From Actinobacteria bacterium HGW-Actinobacteria-2 (GTDB lineage: Bacteria; Actinomycetota; Actinomycetes; Propionibacteriales; Propionibacteriaceae): a DNA stretch of 64,000 nucleotides. The translations under genes were made by a program, and so were the position numbers. The DNA is taken from contig PHEY01000001.1 of the NCBI GenBank assembly GCA_002841335.1, forward strand, positions 186,964-250,963. The letters are read 5' to 3'. Shown piece by piece: positions 40,807-63,906 of this stretch (position 1 is the stretch's first letter; each line of letters opens with the position of its first letter). A model generated the notes under the pieces. The model did no database searches, was not told the origin of the DNA, and was given only the letters and a program-made list of their open reading frames with translations.

Positions 40807-41265
40807 CTATCCCTGTGCGTCCACCGCACGCCCCGCAGGACGTCCGGTGTTGCGCTCGAAGGTAAGTGCTGTGTCCAAGAGTGCCACAGCCGCTGCTTGA
40901 TCGATCACCGCACGCTGCCGCTTGGCGCTGCGTCCGCTCGCCGAGAGTTGGCGGGAGGCTGAGGCGGTGGTCAGGCGCTCGTCGAGCAGCCGCACCGGCA
41001 CGTCGGGAACCGCCGCCACCAAGGCGTCGGCGATCTCTCGCATTGCCAGGGCGGCGGGTCCGTCCACACCGGCGAGGTTCACCGGTAGGCCCAGGATCAA
41101 CTCAAAAGGCTCGTACTCAGCCACCAGCGCCTGCACCCGCGGCAGCGCCCCCGCGCCGGCCGGCACGGTCTCGACCGGGTAGGCCAGCAGGCCGTCCCGA
41201 TCGCAGGCCGCGACCCCGATCCGGGCCTTACCCCAGTCCAGAGCCAGCCGGACGCCGGTGCGCAC
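40807..41265 (-). CDS. ruvX: YqgF/RuvX family nuclease
   Basis: The 152-residue RNase H-fold protein has ALDWGKARIGVA (first acidic residue, ~9), LILGLPVNLAG (~56) and RLLDERLTTASA (~98), with the conserved acidic residues of the family. Homologues process pre-16S rRNA ends and are annotated as putative Holliday-junction resolvases. It begins 2 nt after alaS (GTG start) and precedes mltG. Confidence 0.95.
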   Translation of the reverse strand: MRTGVRLALDWGKARIGVAACDRDGLLAYPVETVPAGAGALPRVQALVAEYEPFELILGLPVNLAGVDGPAALAMREIADALVAAVPDVPVRLLDERLTTASASRQLSASGRSAKRQRAVIDQAAAVALLDTALTFERNTGRPAGRAVDAQG

Positions 41266-60900: not shown

Positions 60901-61956
60901 TCAGCTCCCGGAAAACAGATCCGGACCATGATCAGCGCCAGCCGCACCGCGCGGCGGCTGCAAACCCAGATGCTCCCAGGCACGTCGAGTGGCGACCCGT
61001 CCGCGCGGCGTCCGCATCAGGAAGCCTTCCCGCACCAGGAACGGCTCGGCGACTTCCTCGATGGTCTCGGTCTCTTCGGCCACCGCCAACGCCAACGTGC
61101 CCACGCCCACCGGGCCGCCACCGAACGAGCGGCACAAGGCGTCCAGGATGGCGCGGTCCAACCGGTCAAGCCCGACCGGATCGACCTCGTACAACTCCAG
61201 GGCATCGCGGGCGACAGTGGCGGTCAACACCCCATCAGCCCGAACCAGTGCGAAGTCACGCACCCGGCGCAGCAGCCGGTTGGCGATTCGGGGCGTGCCC
61301 CGGGAACGTGACGCGATCTCGGCCCCGGCGGTCGGCTCCAACCGGATTCCCAGGAGGGCTGCGGAGCGCGCCAGCAGCTTCTCCAGATCGGCGGTGGCGT
61401 AGAAGTCCAGTTGGGCGGTGAACCCGAAGCGGTCGCGCAGCGGCCCAGGCAACAAGCCCGAGCGCGTGGTGGCCCCGACCAGGGTGAATCGGGGGATCTC
61501 CAGCGGGATCGCAGTCGCGCCGGGGCCTTTGCCCACCACGACATCCACCCGGAAGTCCTCCATGGCCAGGTAGAGCATCTCCTCGGCGGGCCGCGACATC
61601 CGGTGGATCTCGTCGAGGAAGAAGACCTCTCCCTCGGTCAGGCCGGACAAGATCGCGGCCAGATCGCCGGCATGCTGGATCGCCGGGCCGGACGAGATCC
61701 GGATCGGAGCACCCATCTCGGCGGCGATGATCATCGCCAGCGTGGTCTTGCCCAACCCGGGTGGGCCCGACAGCAGGACGTGGTCGGGCACCGTGCCTCG
61801 GTGCCGCGCGGCCGCGAGCACCAGCCCCAGCTGGTCACTCACCCGCCGCTGTCCCCCGAACTCGGCCAGGGTTCCTGGGCGCAGCGCGGACTCGGCCGCC
61901 TGCTCGTCGAGATGGACGTGCGGGTCGAGCGGGTCGGTATCGGCCGATTGGGTCAC
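60901..61956 (-). CDS. ruvB: Holliday-junction branch-migration helicase RuvB
   Basis: The 351-residue AAA+ motor has Walker [10 protein letters not shown] (~64-72), Walker [10 protein letters not shown] (~112-120), sensor 1 GATTRSGLL, the arginine-finger region PLRDRFGF and the C-terminal winged helix ([17 protein letters not shown]). It drives branch migration with RuvA. It begins 5 nt after ruvA with a GTG. Confidence 0.97.
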
Positions 61957-61961
61957 AGCGG

Positions 61962-62564
61962 CTACTTTGCCAGGCTGCGGAGCGCCGCGCGCAGCAGAAT
62001 CGCGACACCGATGTCGGGATCGTTGGCCACCAGGTCGGCGACTCGGTCACAGGCGACCTCGGCGTCGCGGGTCGAGTACCCCAGCCCCTCCAGGCCGCCG
62101 CGGACCTGTTCACGCCAGCCGCCGTCGTCCGCCGGGGTGGTCACCACCGTGGTCGAGCCGACGAAACCGAGCACCTTGTCCTTCAGCTCCAACACCAGCT
62201 TGGCCGCCCCCTTGGCGCCGATCCCGGGGACCTTGGTGATGGCGCTGGTGTTATCGGCGCGCACCGCGGATGCAAACTCGGCCGGGGTGAACACCGAACA
62301 GATCGCCAGGGCGATCCGCGGCCCGATCCCGGAGGCGGACTGGGCCAACTCGAACAGATCACGCTCGTCGGCGGAGCCGAAGCCGTACAGGGTCAGCGAG
62401 TCTTCCCGCACCACCAGTGAGGTGTGCACGATCAGCTGCTCCCCCAGCCGAGCCGAAGCGGCGGTGGCGGGGGTGCACAACACCCGCACGCCGAAGCCGG
62501 ACAGATCCAGCTCCACCCACGTGCCGCCGGCGGCGAGCACCTCGCCGCGAAGCCGGGAAATCAT
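61962..62564 (-). CDS. ruvA: Holliday-junction DNA-binding protein RuvA
   Basis: The 200-residue protein has the N-terminal OB domain ([10 protein letters not shown]), two helix-hairpin-helix motifs ([12 protein letters not shown] ~75-86 and [19 protein letters not shown] ~113-131) and the C-terminal RuvB-binding domain. It recognises the four-way junction. Its ATG overlaps the ruvC stop (ATGA), the usual ruvC-ruvA-ruvB operon. Confidence 0.97.
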
Positions 62565-63068
62565 GCGCTTGCCTTCCTACCCTGCCGAGCTATCGCCTCG
62601 GCCATCCGATCACTGGCTGCCCCGCGCCACAGGTGGCAGATCGCCAGCGCGACCGCGTCGGCAGCATCTGCCGGTTTGGGGGGTGCATCCAGACGGAGGA
62701 GCCGAGCCACCATGTGGCCGACTTGGGCCTTGTCGGCTCGCCCGGAGCCGGTGATGGCGGCCTTGACCTCAGTCGGGGTGTGGGTGAACACCGGCAGCCC
62801 GGCACGGGCACCGGCGACCATCGCCAGGCCTGCGGCCTGCGCGGTGCCGATCACCGAATGCAGATTGTGCTCGGCGAAGACGCGCTCCACCGCGACCACG
62901 TCCGGATGATGCTCGGCGATCCATTCGGTCAGCGCGGTCTCGATCATCAGCAACCGTCGCGACGGATCCAGATCGGCGGGGGTGGTGATCACGCTGCCGA
63001 CCAGGGGCTCCGTCCACCACACCGACCCCACAACGGGTCAGGCCGGGATCGACTCCCAGTACTCGCAT
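62561..63068 (-). pseudogene. ruvC: ruvC, Holliday-junction resolvase, frameshifted near its 5' end
   Basis: RuvC cuts Holliday junctions. The first 24 codons from ATG 63068 (ribosome binding site GGAAGG, 8 nt upstream) read MRVLGVDPGLTRCGVGVVDG, the proper RuvC N-terminus with catalytic Asp7. After this the frame loses homology, and the rest of the protein (VITTPADLDPSRR, AVERVFAEHN, TPTEVKAAITGSG, PADAADAVALAICH) continues one frame over, to a stop at 62561. The change lies at about 62990-63010. Reconstruction suggests about 20 nt are missing between two CTGGTCGG copies, one of which survives at 62997-63004. A GTG at 63031 could start a 156-residue fragment lacking Asp7, so activity should be lost unless this is an error or frameshifting occurs. 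Confidence 0.85.
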
Positions 63069-63138
63069 GCGCGCCGCCTTCCGAACAGATGTTCGGATAT
63101 TAACCAGCCTCGTCGAACCGGTCAGGCAGGCACGCCGG

Positions 63139-63906
63139 TCACTCGCCGAGCTGTTCGCCGATCTCGTCGGGGACGTCCTCGTTGCTGTAGACGTTCTGGA
63201 CGTCGTCGAGGTCTTCGATCGCATCCAGCAGCTTGAACAGCTTCTCAGCCACCTCGACCGAGTCGATCGCCTGCCCGTACTGCGGCAGGAACTGCACCTC
63301 GGCCGACTCGTAGTCCAAGCCGGCGGCCTGCACGGCCTTGCGAACCTCGACCACGACGCTCGGGTCGCTGATCACCTTGAAGGTCTCGCCCTCGTCGCTG
63401 ACGTCCTCGGGGTCGGCGTCCAGGGTCGCCTCGAGCAGATCGTCCTCAGAGACGGTCTTGCCGGCCTGGCTCTTGGCGACCTCGACCACACCCTTGCGAT
63501 CGAAGATGCGCGAGACCGAGCCGACGTCGGCCATGGTGCCGCCGTTGCGGGTGACCGCGACCTTCACCTCGGCAGCCGAGCGGTTGCGGTTGTCGGTGAG
63601 GCACTCGATCAGAATCGCGACCCCGGCTGGGCCGTAGGCCTCGTAGGTGATCTCGATGTAGTCGACCGATTCGCCGCCGATGCCACCGCCGCGCTTGACC
63701 GCGCGCTCGATGTTGTCCACGGGCACCGAGTTCTTGCGAGCCTTCTGGATCGCGTCGTACAGGGTCGGGTTTCCTGAGGGGTCAGCACCACCGGTACGCG
63801 CGGCGACCTCGATGTTCTTGATCAGCTTGGCAAACAGCTTGCCGCGCTTGGCATCGATAGCAGCCTTCTTGTGCTTGGTGGTGGCCCACTTGGAGTGCCC
63901 GCTCAT
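63139..63906 (-). CDS. yebC: YebC/PmpR family protein
   Basis: The 255-residue protein begins [16 protein letters not shown] and has the TACO1-like three-domain YebC fold, with [21 protein letters not shown] and [21 protein letters not shown] as family signatures. Members are described as transcription regulators and, more recently, as ribosome-associated translation factors. A GGGGA site lies before the ATG. It is upstream of ruvC and likely leads that operon. Confidence 0.95.

Follow-up and report, generated by a model that had tools for sequence, protein, structure and literature searches.

The ruvC locus on the minus strand of this bacterial contig raises the question of why the two parts of a junction-resolvase gene lie in different reading frames, and whether the gene is broken in the cells at all. 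The gene occupies positions 63068-62561 of the window (the whole stretch of 64,000 nucleotides that was analysed), and its N-terminal start and the remainder of RuvC are read in different frames. An earlier reading, made from the sequence only, had called this a frameshift, and it was right in this respect. No other RuvC is encoded elsewhere: a search of the whole 2.92-Mb genome (14 contigs, 98.58% complete, contamination 0) returned a single RuvC match, which is the window's own. We consider it probable that ruvC has suffered a recent 20-nt loss-of-function deletion. Most probably the break is an ordinary lesion and does not represent a new system.

Table 1. Features of the ruv region and related genes, in positions of the window
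Feature	Positions	Strand	Remarks
ruvX (yqgF)	40807..41265	-	intact; PF03652 above cut-off; possible second junction-cutting enzyme
ruvB	60901..61956	-	intact; NF000868 469.8 bits, cut-off 282
ruvA	61962..62564	-	intact; TIGR00084 161.5 bits, cut-off 85
3′ piece of ruvC	62561..63031	-	156 aa from internal GTG (63031); without the DPG-bearing N-terminal part
Premature stop of the ruvC ATG frame	62769..62771	-	ends a 99-codon (99 aa) frame
Junction of the 20-nt deletion	62992..62995	-	three equivalent placements, 2-nt microhomology, by comparison with the closest relative
5′ piece of ruvC	62997..63068	-	frame of the ATG at 63068; 24 codons including the DPG motif
LexA-like SOS box	63082..63095		palindrome CGAAC-N4-GTTCG, upstream of ruvC
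yebC/pmpR-family regulator gene	63139..63906	-	upstream of ruvC; intact; NF001030 319.5 bits, cut-off 243

The 3′ frame of ruvC is open from just past a TGA at 63038-63040 down to the stop at 62561 (158 codons), and both frames are stop-free together from 63037 to 62772, an overlap of 266 nt. The 24-aa 5′ piece corresponds to positions 1-18 of the Pfam RuvC profile (E 7.8e-4; 19.8 bits, under the 22.2-bit cut-off) and the 3′ piece to positions 29-148 (137.8 bits, E 3.3e-40), while positions 19-28 are covered by neither. No single open frame of the window's ruvC gave a full-length PF02075 match, the two segments being split between the frames. The 3′ piece passed the TIGR00228 cut-off (103.8 against 100.65) and missed the equivalog cut-off of NF000711 (127.4 against 163 bits).

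Both pieces match RuvC (PF02075, NF000711, TIGR00228) in the proper order, and they lie beside yebC, ruvA and ruvB. The gene also has the position of a ruvC, with ruvA and ruvB coming after it; these two were described as intact in the earlier reading, and both indeed score above their family cut-offs. What distinguishes the window's copy from the RuvC family is that its pieces are in two frames, and no single frame encodes all of the catalytic acids, which we take to be the Asp of the first strand, a Glu and two late acids. The DPG motif of the 5′ piece, presumably holding the first catalytic Asp, and the ERVF and DAADA motifs of the 3′ piece are all encoded, but they share no frame.

To place this layout among its relatives, we searched 60 genomes, the window's own included, and found a RuvC match in 58. 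G027 and G031, which gave no match, have completeness values of 80 and 82%. In the 57 other matched genomes the match, free of stops, begins at profile position 1 and ends at 147 or 148, whereas the window's own starts at 29. When 28 same-genus ruvC genes were aligned, the frame was continuous in all of them and the 20-nt gap appeared in the window alone; a 29th same-genus genome, G027, had no ruvC match and thus stayed outside the alignment. The alignment bears out the deletion length of 20 nt proposed from the sequence, and the layout is shared by none of the relatives examined. One of them, G011, has a separate 3-nt gap that makes its ruvC one codon shorter.

In a wider search of the family, 190 of 198 genomes had a RuvC match; among the 141 good-quality genomes, the window's own included, the figure was 140. 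The matches listed from this search begin at profile position 1. Five low-scoring ruvC matches were inspected; two are full length and three, in G096, G112 and G131, are cut by contig ends. If the deletion is real, the window would hold the only internally broken ruvC among the family matches listed or inspected. With ruvC present in nearly every genome of the family, its viable loss would be unusual.

These alignments also bear on whether ruvC might still work through ribosomal frameshifting between the overlapping frames. The long stop-free overlap would allow it, and strong purifying selection on the 3′ part would be in keeping with a functional product. However, all 28 same-genus copies are single-frame, and since the layout occurs in 0 of 28, there is no conserved frameshift site. 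The product would, moreover, be missing residues, or carry others instead, in a stretch (presumably a core strand) that is retained in 28/28 relatives, and the conservation of the 3′ part is explained by selection that predates a very recent lesion. We consider such frameshifting very unlikely.

With a deletion as the preferred explanation, the consequences for the protein can be predicted. With 20 nt lost within codons 25-32, the N-terminus and the first catalytic Asp that it carries would no longer be read in frame with the rest of the protein. Translation from the ruvC ATG would then yield a 99-aa chimera, and an internal start would yield a 156-aa protein devoid of the N-terminal part. The ruvC product is probably inactive.

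The 156-aa product from the GTG at 63031 could conceivably have a function of its own, such as binding junctions without cutting them. It has a start codon and the 158-codon open frame, it spans most of the profile (positions 29-148), and its TIGR00228 score lies above the cut-off. Against this, the product, from a putative GTG start, has no DPG-bearing N-terminal part, and the relatives examined carry the full-length frame. All seven PDB RuvC sequences matched by the 3′ piece (7/7) aligned from chain residue 31 or later. We give this possibility hardly any credence.

How the deletion arose was approached by comparison with the closest relative (93% amino-acid identity), which served as the reference for placing the junction; across the gap, 91 of 100 bases match at the best placement. 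The sequence-only reading had proposed replication slippage between 8-bp repeats, and this part of it found no support. Around the site, exact repeats with a spacing of 20 reach no more than 2 nt in the closest relative, and none of the 28 relatives has one longer than 5 nt, so that close relatives lack a repeat pair of the proposed kind spaced by the deletion length. In addition, the 8-bp repeat model displaces a glycine found at this position in 28/28 relatives. The closest relative has one notable repeat, of 6 nt at spacing 17; slippage by 17 nt would produce another junction than the one seen.

Repeat-driven slippage has thus become less plausible and is not supported, though the case against it is not closed, the reference being relatives and not the window's own ancestor. 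Microhomology equal to or greater than that observed is shown by 21% of random 20-nt deletions in the closest relative's gene. With only 2 nt shared by the deletion ends, again with the closest relative as reference, either end joining or a replication error would fit.

The main competitor of a genuine deletion is an assembly or consensus artefact, in which ruvC is whole in the cells and the gap was introduced by the assembler or by polishing, or stems from a minority strain. The state of the rest of the gene is relevant here. In comparison with the closest relative, the 3′ part of ruvC has dN 0.033 and dS 0.826, giving a dN/dS of about 0.04; the neighbouring genes have values of about 0.11 (ruvA), 0.04 (ruvB), 0.07 (yebC), 0.07 (secD) and 0.10 (yajC). 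With two outgroups, three amino-acid changes in the 3′ part fall on the window branch and two on the relative's branch, and five are ambiguous.

From these counts, the unconstrained share of the window branch is at most about 7% (counting 3 changes) or 12% (counting 8), where the limits are the upper ends of two-sided 95% Poisson intervals and half of dS is assigned to the window branch. Since at most 7-12% of the branch was unconstrained, the lesion is either very recent or absent from the cells. The substitution pattern therefore fits a very young lesion and an artefact alike. The preservation of the gene and its retention in nearly all good-quality family genomes favour an artefact. It is also favoured by the origin of the six best-matching named records among those listed, which are metagenome assemblies (this concerns the records and not the window's own genome).

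These six records came from a search with the 3′ part, of which 80 loci were listed: the best named matches (L032-L037, 75-93% identity) are Propionibacteriales, Propionibacteriaceae and Propionicimonas metagenome assemblies. As the best named matches listed belong to Propionibacteriaceae and Propionicimonas, the organism is placed in that family, near Propionicimonas, and a mycobacterial host is rejected. A plasmid search gave two partial matches of about 75%.

If the assembly were generally unreliable, other genes should be broken as well, and we surveyed about 440 kb of the window's contig against 381 kb of the same-genus genome G008 in three versions. The crudest one reported 11 of 226 G008 genes as frame-broken on the window's genome and 11 of 184 in the reverse direction; in our judgement it was swamped mostly by antisense frames. 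After filtering by codon usage there were 4 candidates for a frame break among 188 genes and, in reverse, 2 among 213, and ruvC was not listed.

In the final survey, starts were chosen by codon usage and we asked whether an open frame could hold the missing end. It required identity of at least 60%, coverage of at least half of the gene and missing ends of at least 10 residues, and because of these limits badly broken or fast-evolving genes can escape it. A match fit for the test was available for 217 of 252 G008 genes, and 3 more were skipped at the ends of the stretches. Five of the 217 orthologues were flagged, ruvC among them, and none of 239 in the reverse direction. Of the four others, one corresponds to a pair of complete, separate genes here, and in three the difference is confined to the final 12-22 residues. 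Across about 440 kb and 217 orthologues, ruvC is thus the one clear case of an internally broken frame, which makes general indel noise unlikely.

The pair (L150:16200-19375, on contig C2 of G000) consists of adjacent complete genes of 420 and 633 aa, presumably a maltokinase and a glycogen branching enzyme, that correspond to one long frame in G008. The long frame there is possibly a gene fusion or a sequence difference. This pair was one of the four candidates of the codon-usage-filtered survey, whose other three were not flagged in the final one.

The isolation of ruvC in this survey counts against an artefact. So do the quality figures of the genome given above and the finding that, over the spacings scanned, repeats at the site in the closest relative do not exceed 6 nt. 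Besides, a 20-nt gap is unlike the typical single-base homopolymer error. We regard an artefact as a serious but clearly less probable explanation. A recent deletion is supported by the frame break itself, by its absence in the relatives examined and by a gene that is otherwise uneroded and retains its LexA-like box; it is weakened by the near-universal presence of ruvC and because lack of decay is equally expected from a consensus error.

Under the deletion reading, RuvAB could still be produced and migrate junctions, perhaps in reduced amount. At 62561-62564 the stop of ruvC and the ATG of ruvA overlap as ATGA. Because the broken ruvC frame never reaches this stop, translation of RuvA may drop; lower RuvA through lost translational coupling is thus conceivable. 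The junctions would then be left to RecG-type remodelling and possibly to RuvX.

The genome's content of other junction-processing genes was examined accordingly. The best RecG match reached 614.6 bits against a curated cut-off of 659.4, hence we refer to it as a RecG-like helicase. Searches of the genome for RusA and RecU gave no match, the profiles having been found in 3 and 2 of 14 control genomes, respectively. Endonuclease VII also had no match in the genome, but it had none in the control genomes either, which makes this result uninformative.

RuvX/YqgF (PF03652) resembles RuvC in being a possible junction resolvase of related fold, and it is intact in this genome. It differs in belonging to a separate family with other catalytic positions, according to the available part of the text of PMC9601230. 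The sequence-only reading held that RuvX is not an established substitute for RuvC, which is fair but incomplete, as the same part of that source states junction-resolvase activity for RuvX/YqgF of M. tuberculosis and H. pylori (PMC9601230). RuvX is hence a potential but unproven backup, and here, on our analysis, it may be considered only a candidate. In Deinococcus, disruptions of ruvC and yqgF were obtained only in the heterozygous state, which is why both may be essential there (PMC9601230, same part).

A stronger form of the loss would be a lineage that has dispensed with RuvC but not with RuvAB and whose sole junction resolvase is RuvX or an unrecognised nuclease, so that the window would capture the first step of ruvC loss. 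We find this improbable. In the portion of the literature that was searched, no report of ruvC loss in this group was found. The closest parallel is ruvA in some Wolbachia, described in the accessible part of PMC4224334 as a recently neutralised recombination gene. As with the window's ruvC, a Ruv gene is losing its function while other recombination genes are kept; in contrast, the Wolbachia case is one of an endosymbiont in which selection is relaxed in some of the strains (PMC4224334, same part), whereas ruvC here, in a relative of Propionicimonas, shows one frameshift and no measurable relaxation.

If real, the deletion would make this actinobacterium a natural ruvC-null whose RuvAB and RuvX are intact, and would let one ask whether RuvX can stand in for RuvC. 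Should it be an error, it would warn against inferring pseudogenes from a single assembly.

Upstream of the break, the regulatory region of ruvC appears preserved. The palindrome listed in Table 1, which we take to be the LexA/SOS motif, is separated from the ruvC ATG by 13 nt. It is the sole match within the window, where 0.09 are expected, and at least one match occurred in 8 of 100 shuffles. The exact palindrome is kept in 25 of the 28 same-genus relatives. Since an SOS-box-like palindrome is present and its exact form is this widely conserved, the regulation of ruvC looks intact. The predicted box probably binds LexA, and its conservation suggests that in this group ruvC and the genes following it are under SOS control.
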